The notes under the pieces: generated by a model
What the model was told of the DNA's origin: nothing
The model's input: only the letters and a program-made list of their open reading frames with translations
Databases searched by the model: none
Origin: an uncultured Peptococcaceae bacterium
Lineage (GTDB): Bacteria > Bacillota > Peptococcia > Peptococcales > Peptococcaceae
Length of the DNA: 44,798 nt
Assembly (NCBI GenBank): GCA_949743265.1
Contig: CATJSX010000114.1
Span: 1 to 44,798 of the forward strand
Reading direction: 5' to 3'
In this document: positions 20,070 through 27,295 of the stretch, piece after piece
Position numbering within the stretch: position 1 is the stretch's first letter
Layout: each line of letters opens with the position of its first letter
Made by a program: the position numbers and the translations under genes

Positions 20070-20687
20070 TTACCGAACATATGGGTTGACTTTGCGCTCA
20101 TAAGCCATTGTCGTTTCTGGTCCATGTCCTGGATAAACAACCGTATCGTCATCAACAATACTTAAGCGCTTACGTACGGATTCCAAAATAGCGCTGTAAT
20201 CCCCACCATATAAATCAGTGCGTCCTACAGTACCTTTAAAAAGCGTATCGCCGGAGAAACAAATTTTTTCGTTTAATTCATAATAACAACAACTGCCTTT
20301 AGTATGACCGGGCGTATAAATAACTTGCAACTGATAAGCGCCAAAATTGATAATATCGCCGTTACGCAACAATACATCGGCTGGTTTTATACTTCGGCTG
20401 CCCATGTTTTTTTTAGTGTCCGTTAACATTTCATGATCGTCAACATGGATCATCACCGACGCTTTAGTAACGGCACGAATATCATCAACGGCGTCAATAT
20501 GGTCATAGTGACCGTGCGTTAACAAAATATATTTGATATCCAAATTTTCATGAGCAATAACTTTTAAAATTAAATCGCTTTCATCGCCGGGATCAATCAC
20601 TATCGTTTCTTTAGTGTTTTCATCATAAACAATATAGCAATTTGCCTGTATAGTGCCTACGCTTAAGGTCTTTACCTTCACAAACAT
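20070..20687 (-). CDS. Metallo-beta-lactamase-fold hydrolase (glyoxalase II-like)
   Basis: 205 residues. The di-metal motif THGHYDHIDA, a second aspartate-bearing block GDTLFKGTVGRTDL, HTKGS and the late PGHGPETT histidine are all present. This is the YcbL-type short hydroxyacylglutathione hydrolase group, lacking the glutathione-binding C-terminal domain; thioester hydrolysis is likely, the substrate unknown. It follows dtd by 6 bp on the minus strand. AGGAGG lies just upstream; both ATG 20687 and GTG 20681 fit, the latter with the better 8-nt spacing. Confidence 0.88.
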   Translation of the reverse strand: MFVKVKTLSVGTIQANCYIVYDENTKETIVIDPGDESDLILKVIAHENLDIKYILLTHGHYDHIDAVDDIRAVTKASVMIHVDDHEMLTDTKKNMGSRSIKPADVLLRNGDIINFGAYQLQVIYTPGHTKGSCCYYELNEKICFSGDTLFKGTVGRTDLYGGDYSAILESVRKRLSIVDDDTVVYPGHGPETTMAYERKVNPYVR

Positions 20688-20693
20688 CTCCTC

Positions 20694-21143
20694 CTAAAAA
20701 TTTTTCTTGCTGTCTAAAAGTATGGTTACTGGTCCATCATTGCTCAAAGTAACGGTCATATGCGTTTGAAAACGACCGCTGGCAACCGCTATGCCTTCTT
20801 GTTTTAAATAAGTATTGAACTGATCGTATAATTGATTTGCTTTTTCTGCTTTTGCCGCTTCGGTAAAACTGGGACGCCGCCCTTTGCGGCAATCGCCATA
20901 CAACGTAAATTGGCTAACGGACAAAATACTGCCGCCAATATCCACTACTGAACGGTTCATTTTACCGTCCTCATCTTCAAAAATGCGAAGATGAGCAATT
21001 TTATCCGCTAAATAGCGGCAATCTTCATGGCTATCATTTTCAGCAACGCCCAATAAAACCAACAATCCGTGAGCAATTTCGCCAACAGTTTCTTCGGCAA
21101 CTGACACTTTGCTCGCCGTTACTCGCTGTACAACTGCCCGCAT
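20694..21143 (-). CDS. dtd: D-aminoacyl-tRNA deacylase Dtd
   Basis: 149 residues, the normal length. Hydrolyses D-amino acids mischarged onto tRNA. Family motifs: [15 protein letters not shown] at the N-terminus, [17 protein letters not shown], and the C-terminal NDGPVTI. AAGGAGGAG lies before the ATG. It sits between relA (14 bp) and the hydrolase gene (6 bp); relA-dtd linkage is common in Firmicutes. Confidence 0.95.
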
Positions 21144-21157
21144 GGATACTCCTCCTT

Positions 21158-23341
21158 TTATTGATGGGAAATAGTTCGTTTAACCTCTAATACATCTTGA
21201 ATACTTTTAATTTTATCCAGCATGATATTAAGCTGATTCAAATCGTTAACTTCAATGTCCATATCCATAAAAGTCTGATCGTTTTTCACTCTTGAAGTAA
21301 TAGCAGTAATATGCACTTTGGCGTCGTTAATCAACGCCATTACTTCCGGCGTAATCTTGGGGCGATCTAATGCCACAACTAAAAGCTGTACAGAAAAAAT
21401 TTGATCGGTATCTAATTGCCACTGCGCTTCTACCAAACGATCTGATTCATAATTTTTCAAATTGGGACATTGGCTATGATGAATTTTGATGCCACGCCCA
21501 CGAGTAATATAACCAGTAATAGGATCCCCCGGCAGCGGTTTGCAGCACTGAGCGATAGTTACCTCAATATCGTCCATACCAGCAATAGAAACGCCGCTGT
21601 TATTTTTATTTTTTTTGAGAGGCTTAGTTACTTTACGAGCGTCCTTATTACTCTTGCCGTTTAAAAGTTCGTTGATATTTTTAGCTGGTTCATCTCTTTG
21701 AAATTCATCTTTAATGCGGTTGATTACTTGCATAGCAGTCAAAGAGTTGTCGCCAATAGCGGCAATAGTATCTTCCCAGTTGTTATAGCCTACTTTACGC
21801 GAAATTTGTTGGATATGACTACGATTGGTATAAAAAGCCATTTCGAGATTTTGCTTTTTGATCTCTTTTTCCAAAATCTCCTGACCTTTCATTAGATTTT
21901 CTTCTCGTTTATCTCTCTTAAACCATTGACGAATGCGATTTTTAGCTTGAGACGTTTTAGCAATGTTAATCCAATCCTGCCCGGGACCATTGGCAACTTT
22001 AGAAGTCAAAATTTCCACAATGTCGCCAGTCTTCAACTGATAATCAAGGGATACTATTTTATTATTGACTTTACTACCAATGCAACGATTGCCGACTTGT
22101 GTATGCACGCGATAAGCAAAATCAATGGGCGTTGAGCCTACTGGTAATTCAAAAACATCGCCGCCGGGTGAAAAAACAAATACCGAATCGGAAAATAAAT
22201 CAATTTTAATAGACTCCATAAACTCCTTATTGTCTTTTGCTTCCTGCTGCATTTCCTTAAGCTGCTCCAACCAACTCAGCTGACTGGAGCTTTTTTTCAT
22301 ATCACTGCCGCCGCTTTCTTTATATACCCAGTGAGCAGCAATACCGTATTCAGCAGTTTTGTGCATTTCATAGGTACGAATTTGAATTTCAAAAGGTTCG
22401 CCGCCGGGACCAATTACCGTTGTATGCAGTGATTGATACATATTAGGTTTAGGCATAGCAATGTAATCTTTAAATCTGCCGGGAATTGGCTTCCATAAAG
22501 TATGTACTATCCCCAATACCGCATAACAATCCTTAACGGTATCGACTAAAATGCGTACTGCAATCAAATCATAAAGTTCGTTCAGATCTTTATTCTGCTT
22601 AATCATTTTATTGTAAATGCTATAGAAATGTTTAGGGCGACCAGCAATTTCTACTGTCAATTCAGCTTTAGTCAATTCTTTTTGCAAAATATCAATAACG
22701 TGATTGATGTATTCCTCACGTTCAATGCGTTTCATGGAAATACGCGCTACTAAATCATAATATTTATCTGGCTCTAAATATCGCAGAGACAAATCTTCCA
22801 ATTCCCATTTCAATTTAGAAATCCCTAAACGATTAGCGATAGGTGCATAAATTTCCAATGTTTCTCTAGCAATTTCTTTTTGTTTTTCTGGCGCTTGATG
22901 CTTCAGCGTGCGCATATTGTGCAAACGGTCTGCCAATTTGATCATAATAACCCGTACATCTTCAGCCATAGCCAAAAACATCTTGCGATAGCTTTCCAAT
23001 TGCCGTTCTTCTTTAGAATTACACTCCAATTTCCCCAGTTTAGTCACACCATCAACCAAAAAAGCAATTTCGTCGCCAAAATTGTTGCGCACACAGTTCA
23101 TTTTGCAATCAGTATCTTCGGCAACATCATGCAAAAGACCAGCAGCAATAGCATTTTCATCTAATCCTAATTCTGCTAGTGTTACCGCAACATACAACGG
23201 ATGAATAATGTACGGTTCCCCTGATTTGCGCACTTGACCTTTATGCAAATCTTCTGCGAAACGATAAACTTCTTCCAAAGTTTCCAAATCAGCTTTAGGA
23301 TTGTTTTCGTAGGTAATATCCAATAGATCCTTAAATTTCAT
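21158..23341 (-). CDS. relA: Bifunctional (p)ppGpp synthetase/hydrolase Rel
   Basis: 727 residues with the full Rel order: HD hydrolase ([39 protein letters not shown]), synthetase ([43 protein letters not shown]), TGS ([19 protein letters not shown]), zinc-finger/conserved-cysteine domain ([22 protein letters not shown]) and a C-terminal ACT domain. Both catalytic sites look intact, as in Gram-positive Rel. ATG 23341 follows GGGGGGAA; an upstream TTG-type extension to 23368 would overlap the preceding gene. It begins 17 bp after the recJ fusion and belongs to the same operon. Confidence 0.96.
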
Positions 23342-23358: not shown

Positions 23359-26300
23359 CTAAAGCCAACTAGCTGGAAAGATTGGTCGATTGACTGCTTC
23401 CAGCAGCTGGTCGTGATCGCAATGAAAGGCAATCTGCAAATATCGTTCAAAATCATCTAACTCTGCAATACCTTCACGAAAACGCAGCGATCGTTCCAAA
23501 TCAACCTTTTGCGGATGGTGTATCATCGCGATACGTCGCTTATTGCCAACACGCTCCCGCTCCAATAACCCTAGTTCCTCAAATATTCCTAACCAATGAC
23601 TAGCAGTATTTTCGCTAAAACCAACGATTTTCTCTTTATCAGCATACTCTGCTAACTGTAAATTAGTCATTTCCAGCGCCTGTTTATTTGCTGATAGCTT
23701 CATAAGCAATTTATAAAACTGCACCAAATTTTCCCGCTTGGGACAGCTTCCTTCCAATAAAACACGATTTAATCCTTCATCGCGCTGATTATATAATAAA
23801 TGAATAATGGCTTCTTCACCGTTTCGCCCCGCTCTCCCCGCTAATTGATTGTATTCTTCCGCTGAAAAACTTAAATGATATAAAACTACATTTTTAATAT
23901 CAGGAATATCAATTCCTTCCCCAAAAGCGCTGGTTGTCACAATTAAACGCAAACTGCCTTCTTTAAAAGCGGTTTCAATAGCTAAGCGATCGCTATTGGA
24001 GAGTCCTCCGTGATAATAACAAATTTGCTGCGCTATAACCGACGGCATCTTTTCGCGCAAACTTTGCGCGATTTTAACTGCTTGTTTGCGGCTATTAACA
24101 TAAACTACGGTTTTTTCGCCTCTTGTGGCCAACTTTTGCAAATAAGCCATTTTATCCGTATTCTGCCGCTGGTCTTCCAAACGCAAATTTTCTCTAACAT
24201 GACTGTCCAACAAAAATTCGTCCAACACTAATCCTTCGGTAATCGCTTTTGCAGCCGCTTCATTAGCCGTTGCCGTTACAGCCAATATTTGTAACTGTCC
24301 AATTTGTCTAAGCGTTTGCGGCAGTTGTCGATAACCTTGCCGCCGACTTGCTAAATGATGAGCTTCATCAACTACGATTAAACCGATTCGTTCACTAATG
24401 GTGCTAAAACGCTGTTGATTATAAACTAAAAACTCCGGCGTTGTTAAAACAATATCGACCTTGCCTTCACGAAGTTGAGCAAAAAATTCCGCTCGTTCAT
24501 CGCTCTCCAAAGCGCCAGTACCCTTGACAATATTCAGTCCCAACGGCGCTAATTTTTTCTTTAAAGATAAAAATTGATCATTCACCAACGCCCGCAACGG
24601 ATAAACGATAATGGTTGCCAGTTGTCGTTTTAAGGCTAAATAAGCGCTGTACGTTTGAAAAATTGCCGACTTTCCTCTTCCAGTTCCCAGTACCGCCAAC
24701 AAACTTTTACCTTCTATCAACATTTGTATGGCTTCTCGTTGCTTCGGACGATAATCGTTCTCGCCAATCAATGATTCTTTAATTACTTTATGCAGATCAT
24801 TATCGCTTAGCGACGACAGTATTTCCCGACGCGCCTGTGTCGCTTTAGCTACATTATGATCGGCAACTTTTTTGATCAAAATATTGACACCATAATTTTT
24901 AGTTCCGCCGCCAGTAACTTGCTCTACTACTCCTTCATAAAGATGACCATTGTCTAAAAGCGGCGCAATATTTTTGGCTAATTCTTTGCGCAGAAAGCCC
25001 AATGTTTGTTCGTTTTTTTGTACCATTACAGCGTTTTCATCATGAGGATTGTCTTTTTGGCGCACCAATTGCAACCGATCGCCTTCCTGAAGTTTGCTGA
25101 TGTAACTCTGTCGTTGGTCAAAAGTTACGCCAACAATTTTTGTATAAAAACTATCCATCTCAGCAATATTTTGATATGGCGCTATTTTGAGGTATTCTTT
25201 ATAGTAATGAAACAAGCGATCGACAAAACTCATATCATCTGGTCTTCGAAACGATTTAATATCTTTGATCAGCAGCTGCAAACTGGTTTTGCCATTAAAC
25301 GTATTTTTATCCAGCGAAAAAGCAATATCCACTGAACCTTCAGAAAGCAAATTTTCTAATTCTGCTTTTTTAAAACCAATACCGACAATTTCTCCCTGAT
25401 TTGTTTTCAGCTTGATGCGTAAATGTTCGCCATTAGTACCAACCGTTCTGACTTCTGTTGTGGTCTGTCCTCGACAGATAAAAACTGGCGACGGATTGCT
25501 CATACCAGTAGGTTGAATTTTATTGATCTCCTCAAAAATTTCATAATTTAGTTCATTAAGATTGATTTCGCCGTCAATAGCAATTTGCGGAATAAAAGAG
25601 TCATTTGTTGTTCGCTCTGCTACAGTTTGAGCAAATTTTACCCGAAAAGCAGCTAAATTTTCTAGTTTTAAACTCAATCCCGCCGCTTGAGCGTGACCGC
25701 CATAACTTTCCAGATATTCTTCACATTCGGACAAAGCCTGCTGCAAATGAAAGCCTTCAATACTACGACCAGAACCTTTATAAATGCCGTTCGTACGCGT
25801 AAGCACAATAGTCGGCGTATAAAACCGCTCAACTAAACGGGAAGCTACAATGCCAATAACACCGGGATGCCAATCTTCACCAACAACCACTAATCCGGCT
25901 TGAATTTCATCATGACTGCCTTCTACAATAGCCAACGCTTCTTCAAAAATCTGCCGTTCAATAGCTTGACGTTTTTTATTTTCTTCATCAAGCGAACGAG
26001 CAATGTCTATTGCTTCCTTCTCATCAGTAGTAGTTAATAACCTCAATCCTAATCGTACATCACCTACGCGACCGCAAGCATTTAAGCGAGGCGCTAAATT
26101 AAATCCTAAAGCTGTAGCGTTTAACGTTGCTTTATCATTGCGACTAACCTCACACAAAGCAGCCATTCCCGCTCGTTCACCAGTTTTAATTTGCTCCAAA
26201 CCAAATTTGACGAGAATGCGATTATCGCCTTTTAATGCTACAATATCAGCTACTGTTGCCAACGCTACCAAATCCAAATAAGGTCGCATACGCTCCATAA

Positions 26301-26958
26301 TATTTTCTCGCCCAAAATTGTGCTCAAATAATCCTTGTACCAATTTGAATGCAACGCCAGCTCCACACAAATTACGCCAAGCAGCAGCCCCTTCCAGATT
26401 TTCACTCATAACTGGATCAACGATTAACGTTTGCGGCAAAGTAGGTGGTAGCTGATGATGATCAGTAACAATGACTTCTAAACCAAAAGTCTTAGCTTCC
26501 TCTACTTCTTGATAAGAAGAAATTCCACAATCCACCGTCACAACCAAATCAGCGCCTTTTTGCCGAATATTTTTCAGCGCCGCTACATTGATGCCATAAC
26601 CTTCTTCCAAACGATCAGGCACATAATAATCCACTTTAGCCCCTAACGCGCTTAACCCCTGATAAAGAATCACACTGGCGCAAATTCCGTCAACATCATA
26701 ATCACCATAAACGACAATACCTTTTTGCTCATGCACAAAAGATAGAATCCGCTCAACAACCGCCCCCATATTTAAAAGTTCAAAAGGCGAAGACAAATTT
26801 TCCAGCTGAGGCGAGAGAAAATCCCGAATTTCTGACGGTTCCCGATAACCGCGATTAAGCAGAAGATTTGCTAATATAGGCGAAATTTCTAACTGATCTA
26901 CTAGCCGCTCAATCTGCTTTTGATCGTTTTCTCGAATGATCCATTTATTTTTATGCAA
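23359..26958 (-). CDS. recJ: RecJ exonuclease fused to HIRAN and RecQ-like helicase domains
   Basis: 1199 residues from TTG 26958 (GGGAGGG 7 nt upstream). Residues about 1-560 are a RecJ-type 5'-3' ssDNA exonuclease: VVYGDYDVDGICAS, VTVDCG, VTDHHQLP, and the DHHA1 motif SYGGHAQAAG. Residues about 615-720 resemble a HIRAN domain (FYTKIVGVTF, DNPHDENAVMV, LGFLRKELA). Residues about 745-1110 are a superfamily-2 helicase: Walker A GTGRGKSA, VVDEAHHLA, AVTATA, VVYVNSRKQA, SAFGEGIDIPDI and QLAGRAGRNG, with a C-terminal winged-helix-like region. Ordinary RecJ is 560-790 residues. The helicase could unwind DNA for the nuclease. It heads the relA-dtd operon. Confidence 0.9.
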   Translation of the reverse strand: MHKNKWIIRENDQKQIERLVDQLEISPILANLLLNRGYREPSEIRDFLSPQLENLSSPFELLNMGAVVERILSFVHEQKGIVVYGDYDVDGICASVILYQGLSALGAKVDYYVPDRLEEGYGINVAALKNIRQKGADLVVTVDCGISSYQEVEEAKTFGLEVIVTDHHQLPPTLPQTLIVDPVMSENLEGAAAWRNLCGAGVAFKLVQGLFEHNFGRENIMERMRPYLDLVALATVADIVALKGDNRILVKFGLEQIKTGERAGMAALCEVSRNDKATLNATALGFNLAPRLNACGRVGDVRLGLRLLTTTDEKEAIDIARSLDEENKKRQAIERQIFEEALAIVEGSHDEIQAGLVVVGEDWHPGVIGIVASRLVERFYTPTIVLTRTNGIYKGSGRSIEGFHLQQALSECEEYLESYGGHAQAAGLSLKLENLAAFRVKFAQTVAERTTNDSFIPQIAIDGEINLNELNYEIFEEINKIQPTGMSNPSPVFICRGQTTTEVRTVGTNGEHLRIKLKTNQGEIVGIGFKKAELENLLSEGSVDIAFSLDKNTFNGKTSLQLLIKDIKSFRRPDDMSFVDRLFHYYKEYLKIAPYQNIAEMDSFYTKIVGVTFDQRQSYISKLQEGDRLQLVRQKDNPHDENAVMVQKNEQTLGFLRKELAKNIAPLLDNGHLYEGVVEQVTGGGTKNYGVNILIKKVADHNVAKATQARREILSSLSDNDLHKVIKESLIGENDYRPKQREAIQMLIEGKSLLAVLGTGRGKSAIFQTYSAYLALKRQLATIIVYPLRALVNDQFLSLKKKLAPLGLNIVKGTGALESDERAEFFAQLREGKVDIVLTTPEFLVYNQQRFSTISERIGLIVVDEAHHLASRRQGYRQLPQTLRQIGQLQILAVTATANEAAAKAITEGLVLDEFLLDSHVRENLRLEDQRQNTDKMAYLQKLATRGEKTVVYVNSRKQAVKIAQSLREKMPSVIAQQICYYHGGLSNSDRLAIETAFKEGSLRLIVTTSAFGEGIDIPDIKNVVLYHLSFSAEEYNQLAGRAGRNGEEAIIHLLYNQRDEGLNRVLLEGSCPKRENLVQFYKLLMKLSANKQALEMTNLQLAEYADKEKIVGFSENTASHWLGIFEELGLLERERVGNKRRIAMIHHPQKVDLERSLRFREGIAELDDFERYLQIAFHCDHDQLLEAVNRPIFPASWL

Positions 26959-27295
26959 AACTCTTCCCTCCCTTGCTGCTATCAATCTGATTTAAAAATA
27001 ACTTTTTTCATTTTCAAGCAGATTTATTGAGCAAAAAATATTCATAATTTATATAATACCACAACAATACACTATTCGACTATACTTATTGCTAATTTTT
27101 CATCAAAATAGCCAAAAAATTATTCAATTTACCTTTTAAAATAGTCTTTTGATGCGCAATTCCTTTTCCTTTACAAAATATTATCTGCATTTGATTATTT
27201 TGTGCTATAATATTAAACATAGTCTGAGCATTTTTAATCTACGCACTTAAACGTACGCTACAATTTTATGATTATCATATGTAGGAGATGATTCT
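26959..27295. other. Divergent intergenic region
   Basis: AT-rich, between the minus-strand recJ operon and the plus-strand zinc-ribbon gene. The only signal I can support is the extended -10 promoter at 27203-27211. Confidence 0.5.
27203..27211 (+). promoter_or_regulatory. Extended -10 promoter
   Basis: TGCTATAAT, an extended -10 element with consensus hexamer; no good -35 box at 17 bp. It lies about 85 bp before the zinc-ribbon gene. Confidence 0.5.

Follow-up and report, generated by a model that had tools for sequence, protein, structure and literature searches.

A one-chain RecJ-HIRAN-RecQ-like helicase, likely a 5'-strand resection enzyme and probably ancestral in much of Bacillota

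RESULTS

RecJ, HIRAN, and a RecQ-like helicase are encoded in one reading frame

The window, i.e., the whole stretch of 44,798 nucleotides analyzed here from an uncultured Peptococcaceae bacterium, carries on its minus strand a recJ-HIRAN-helicase fusion gene (23359..26958) that forms one uninterrupted open reading frame of 1199 aa. The frame starts with a TTG at 26958, codes down to 23362, and ends in a stop codon at 23361-23359. A GGGAGGG ribosome-binding-like site (26966..26972, minus strand) lies 7 bases upstream of the TTG.

The N-terminal part of the protein contains a DHH nuclease domain with the motifs GDYDVDG and DHH (aa 81-235; 26254..26718; PF01368, 95.5 bits), a DHHA1 domain with a GGH motif (aa 357-447; 25618..25890; PF02272, 61.7 bits), and a RecJ_OB (OB-fold) domain (aa 461-566; 25261..25578; PF17768, 97.5 bits), all, like the domains that follow, on the minus strand. 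These are followed by a HIRAN domain (aa 603-683; 24910..25152; PF08797, 52.3 bits against a cut-off of 24.7), a helicase RecA1/DEAD domain (aa 737-902; 24253..24750; PF00270, 90.4 bits) that includes the Walker A motif GTGRGKS (24667-24687, minus strand), and a helicase RecA2 domain (Helicase_C; aa 936-1047; 23818..24153; PF00271, 96 bits) with a motif VI of the form QxxGRxGR. Each of these six domains scores above its Pfam gathering cut-off. The chain ends in a winged-helix-like (WH) domain (approximately aa 1062-1199; 23362..23775), which is homologous to the second half of PF10141 (hhalign P 8.7e-16); PF10141 itself matches the protein weakly at 1071-1167, with 15.8 bits, below its cut-off of 26.4. 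The domain search therefore confirms the initial annotation, which had proposed a single chain of about 1199 residues joining RecJ, HIRAN, and a superfamily-2 (SF2) RecQ-like helicase; its domain list stands for DHH/DHHA1, HIRAN, and the helicase but had missed the RecJ OB domain and the C-terminal winged-helix-like domain.

The RecJ identity is given by the NCBIfam recJ equivalog TIGR00644, which covers the first ~570 aa with 535 bits against a cut-off of 396.9 and is matched over its full length (1-546/546). The RecJ catalytic motifs GDxDxDG, DHH, D, and GGH are conserved in the window protein. Across 40 fusions with 38-61% identity to this protein, GD.D.DG, DHH, and GGH are invariant, as are the helicase residues T.RGK (Walker A), DE.HH, TAT, NSR, AFGEG, and Q..GR.GR, so that the proposal of intact key motifs holds for nuclease and helicase alike. 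An AlphaFold2 model built from an alignment of 40 relatives has a mean pLDDT of 87, with each domain confident; given its pTM of 0.65, the relative placement of the domains is less certain. A Foldseek search with this model retrieves solved RecJs at E of about 1e-44 and the cores of RecQ, WRN, and BLM at E of about 1e-20 to 1e-18.

The helicase module is RecQ-like and under strong constraint

SF2 motifs I-VI are present in the fused helicase, which scores 193.5 bits with the RecQ family model TIGR00614 (recQ_fam; cut-off 219.8) and 184 bits with TIGR01389 (RecQ; cut-off 640). Because the TIGR00614 score falls under the cut-off, we describe the helicase as RecQ-like rather than as a RecQ. Consistent with this, Pfam searches of the window protein at E<=1 detected neither the RecQ zinc-binding/RQC domain nor an HRDC domain. 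The family profile of the HIRAN domain matches HLTF HIRAN structures at E of about 1e-9, in an alignment that includes the N..D..A core.

As motif conservation among the fusions indicates, the helicase module is strongly constrained: all helicase motifs are retained in 77 of the 79 full-length forms, and the N..D..A core of HIRAN is likewise retained in 77/79. Two full-size RecJ-HIRAN-helicase proteins (L131 and L181) have lost helicase motifs and are pseudo-helicases.

The relA neighborhood is conserved irrespective of the fusion

Downstream of the fusion gene and on the same strand, relA (21158..23341) begins 17 bases past the recJ stop, followed by dtd, encoding a D-aminoacyl-tRNA deacylase (20694..21143), and by a gene for an MBL-fold hydrolase of the gloB/yqgX type (20070..20687); the last two are named by sequence and synteny, and all three are conserved neighbors. 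The initial annotation had found the link to the stringent-response gene relA curious. Counting only loci with enough flank (n=108), we find relA downstream of recJ on the same strand in 104 of them, for fused, decayed, and unfused RecJ alike. Since the neighbor is the same whatever the form of RecJ, the link has no special meaning for the fusion, and we rejected stringent-response coupling in favor of ordinary synteny. Besides the long relA, the window contains a small HD-domain ORF (53-667) that resembles a stand-alone (p)ppGpp hydrolase.

The fusion is the sole RecJ of its genome, which also encodes a separate complete RecQ (719 bits against a cut-off of 640), RecG, and AddA. Of the second recQ and recJ that, according to the initial annotation, might leave the fusion redundant and inactive, only recQ is present: because there is no second RecJ and the fused helicase is strongly constrained, redundancy with no activity is not supported. 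Across fused genomes, a separate RecQ is present in that of the window and in G003, G022, G080, G151, G186, G209, and G232 and absent from G005, G021, G023, G055, and G067. No clear pattern emerges, and we discarded the idea that genomes with the fusion have lost their stand-alone RecQ.

The fusion is old, widespread, and largely co-inherited

Of 398 sampled genomes of the phylum, 31 encode a protein strongly related to the HIRAN-helicase half, mostly in a single frame of ~1200 aa. A single-sequence query of genome contigs gave no match; a query with an alignment did find relatives. Named genomes that carry the fusion belong to Peptococcaceae, Thermincola, Orenia, Coriobacteriia (Olsenella, Parafannyhessea, and Atopobiaceae), and Ca. 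Oleimmundimicrobium. The fusion is old, and it is widespread, with members in Bacillota, Coriobacteriia, and Ca. Oleimmundimicrobium. The lineage initially assumed, Negativicutes, is not the one indicated by the closest named records, which are metagenome-assembled genomes of Peptococcaceae and Clostridia. A description of a RecJ-HIRAN or RecJ-RecQ fusion was not found in the open-access literature searched.

Trees of the RecJ half and of the helicase half have 45 of 72 splits in common (shuffled-label mean, 0.19), and therefore the two halves have largely travelled together; two splits of the RecJ tree conflict with the helicase-half tree at 0.99 support. These results also bear on the concern that two genes were wrongly joined by an assembly or frame error, which the draft state of the genome (208 contigs) might raise. 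The same one-frame architecture recurs in dozens of independent genomes from two phyla and the trees of the two halves are congruent, which makes an artefact extremely improbable, and we rejected it.

Two further observations concern HIRAN-helicases outside the standard arrangement. Five Eremiobacterota loci (L215, L232, L248, L260, and L262) encode HIRAN-helicase proteins of ~680-830 aa, with RecJ not found in the retrieved flanks; such proteins are a possible source of the fused module. Genome G178 encodes a 1091-aa RecJ with a helicase-like tail (L132), a 794-aa RecJ (L133), and a 657-aa HIRAN-helicase ORF (L134), which are either paralogues or a split.

RecJ tails form a graded series consistent with repeated loss of the helicase

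The tails that follow the OB domain in Bacillota RecJ proteins have near-continuous lengths, from about 675 to 5 residues. With one profile per fused domain, derived from 34 intact fusions, we read these tails as a graded series: intact HIRAN-RecA1-RecA2-WH; HIRAN lost; RecA1 decayed; RecA2+WH; WH; and none. Specifically, HIRAN is missing and helicase similarity is retained in L037 and L132; forms of ~1000 aa keep RecA1 remnants (L130, 6e-10; L129, 9e-9; and L166); RecA2+WH only is found in L059, L060, L061, L122, L124-L126, and L142; Bacilli-type tails are mostly WH; WH stands alone in the 98-residue tail of L149; and L136, L145, L146, and L148 have no fused-domain remnant. Fragments from G027 (L062, L081) and G029 (L063, L082) were attributed to apparent contig breaks and left out of the series. 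In addition, five RecJ tails of 200-294 residues (L150, L160, L171, L154, and L133) match none of the fused-domain profiles.

RecJ motifs are retained in every row of every class and helicase motifs are gone in the shortened forms, as read from a motif table that rests on added-in alignments and is rough for decayed tails. Within the window's own order, motif V changes from AFGEG to AFSLG in L060 and is lost further in L059 and L061, and the arginines of motif VI are lost in the reduced forms; motifs V/VI are dead in the RecA2-only forms. Pfam independently assigns the remnants of L060 and L124 to Helicase_C and those of L169 and, below cut-off, L061 to PF10141. On the unrooted RecJ tree, the distinction between full and not-full forms requires 13 changes, at least 6 of which are forced by well-supported branches, and the reduced L059 and L060 are surrounded by full forms within the order to which the window belongs. 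Altogether, these results suggest that the helicase has probably been lost repeatedly by decay, with HIRAN, then RecA1, and then motifs V/VI going, leaving RecA2+WH.

Because counts on unrooted trees cannot give the direction of change, this direction rests on the remnants and the dead motifs. The trees are equally compatible with the reverse, in which RecJ started out with a small RecA2-like C-terminal domain and became a fusion when HIRAN and RecA1 were inserted into it. We regard this as very improbable given the dead motifs V/VI of RecA2-only forms, the RecA1 remnants in L130 and L129, and the full-length L131 and L181 with their dead helicases; moreover, it is implausible that a lone decayed RecA2 would repeatedly regain a full helicase.

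The C-terminal tail of ordinary Bacilli RecJ is probably an eroded helicase

A profile built from the C-terminal tails of ordinary RecJ, when compared with the fusion tails, aligns only to RecA2+WH (hhalign P 1.1e-19), and the match persists at P 3.5e-14 when the tails are restricted to members above the PF10141 cut-off. Aligned separately, the two PF10141-type halves match RecA2 at P 1.9e-9 and WH at the P value given above; controls (reversed profiles, RecA1, and HIRAN) give P 0.03 or worse. For Bacilli-type tails alone, a set of five sequences, the match to WH is direct (8.5e-8), and that to RecA2 has a direct P of 0.007 and reaches 1.8e-9 via the RecA2-only tails, which themselves match RecQ structures at 1.3e-13. 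These profile alignments suggest that the PF10141 domain of ordinary Bacilli RecJ is probably an eroded, non-catalytic remnant of the fusion's RecA2+WH.

A structure predicted for one Bacilli-type tail (pLDDT 84) matches S. aureus RecJ at E 4.6e-13; compared directly with helicase folds, it gives weak matches. D. radiodurans RecJ (5f54) ranks third in the Foldseek search with this model (prob 0.98, TMq 0.42). In a search of the PDB with the Bacilli-type tail profile, S. aureus RecJ was the only significant match, and the Deinococcus link is therefore one of fold: the C-terminal domain of D. radiodurans RecJ may be the same helicase remnant.

These tails raise the question of whether the helicase module is mainly a docking or regulatory platform for RecJ that recruits SSB or a helicase and has marginal ATPase activity. 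Were that so, ready decay to a non-catalytic domain would follow, and many lineages do keep a decayed RecA2+WH only; in D. radiodurans, the C-terminal domain of RecJ interacts with SSB and HerA and increases nuclease activity (PMC4846377; PMC4663267). However, the retention of every ATPase and helicase motif in 77/79 full-length forms points to selection on catalysis wherever the module is whole, and we hold the platform explanation to be improbable.

DISCUSSION

Break or gap resection as the most likely function

We consider it fairly likely that the fusion is a single-chain 5'-strand resection helicase-nuclease that was probably ancestral in much of Bacillota, was kept here, and was eroded elsewhere. 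The "self-contained end-resection machine" of the initial annotation is, judged from sequence, its most likely function. In such a machine, the RecQ-like SF2 motor and its winged helix would load onto a DNA end, a gap, or a stalled fork and open the duplex, probably with 3'-to-5' polarity; HIRAN would keep hold of the 3' end or junction, if it binds 3' ends as we presume; and the RecJ nuclease, being part of this chain, would degrade the 5'-ended strand as it is displaced, which would leave a 3' overhang for RecA/RecFOR. We infer both the coupling of the two engines and the cellular role. Since the motor (3'-5') and the nuclease (5'-3') would both move inward from an end, joining them would be sensible as a resection unit. 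The separate proteins are known to work in this way: RecJ, RecQ, and SSB resect together, with RecJ alone digesting 5'-tailed ends, blunt or 3'-overhang ends requiring RecQ, a 3'-5' helicase, and SSB acting as a stimulator (PMC4846377). Because the genome also encodes RecQ and AddA, the fused helicase is not the sole route to resection, and its frequent loss elsewhere indicates that it is dispensable in many backgrounds.

Resection of breaks and gaps is thus ranked most likely, with fork processing as its main rival. By analogy with eukaryotic HLTF, HIRAN could grip the 3' end of a nascent strand at a stalled fork, which the motor would unwind or regress; RecJ would then shorten the newly made lagging strand, and break resection would be left to AddAB. 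The presence of AddA, the profile match to the HIRAN of HLTF, which uses this domain for fork remodelling (PMC4666394), and the processing of blocked forks by E. coli RecJ and RecQ (according to work cited in PMC4846377) would be in keeping with such a role. However, the present evidence fits forks as well as breaks, and the loss of HIRAN from L037, with a helicase that looks intact, indicates that HIRAN is not strictly needed. We regard fork remodelling as unlikely, albeit the least so of the alternatives, and retain end resection as the preferred reading.

The fusion is real and interesting, and its linkage to relA ordinary. As a natural one-chain RecJ-helicase, it would provide a clean system for studying the coupling between unwinding and degradation of the 5' strand.

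Comparison with known systems

The N-terminal 570 aa of the fusion resemble RecJ (TIGR00644), an ssDNA-specific 5'-3' exonuclease, in their DHH, DHHA1, and OB domains and motifs, and RecJ loci have the gene order recJ-relA-dtd-gloB in common with the fusion locus; the fusion differs in adding HIRAN, a RecQ-like helicase, and a winged helix to the chain. The RecQ family (TIGR01389, TIGR00614) is nearest to the helicase core by both sequence and fold. Unlike RecQ, the fusion scores below the curated cut-offs, has no Zn/RQC or HRDC match, places its winged helix directly after RecA2, and carries a nuclease on the same chain. WRN also combines a nuclease with a RecQ-type helicase in one protein but lacks HIRAN and is an unrelated fusion. 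The nuclease of WRN is a 3'-5' exonuclease of another family. HLTF, whose HIRAN the fusion's HIRAN matches by profile, joins this domain to a SWI/SNF translocase and a RING domain, not to a nuclease (PMC4666394).

A further comparison is with RecJ tails themselves. PF10141 (ssDNA-exonuc_C), found in Bacilli RecJ including that of S. aureus (8y30), is homologous to the RecA2 and winged helix of the fusion but lacks the helicase motifs, RecA1, and HIRAN. The C-terminal domain of D. radiodurans RecJ (5f54-5f56), reported to have no HHpred homologues (PMC4663267), is a possible further relative by fold, with no sequence-level support found. It is more likely than not that RecJ was ancestrally such a one-chain enzyme in much of Bacillota and in Coriobacteriia, that the Bacilli C-terminal domain and possibly domain IV of Deinococcus-Thermus RecJ are a decayed RecQ-like helicase, and that two-protein resection by RecJ and RecQ in those lineages followed the loss of the motor. 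The decay series would then give a likely origin for PF10141, a Pfam domain named by position only, and would suggest that the tails of Bacilli RecJ are a surface inherited from a former motor.
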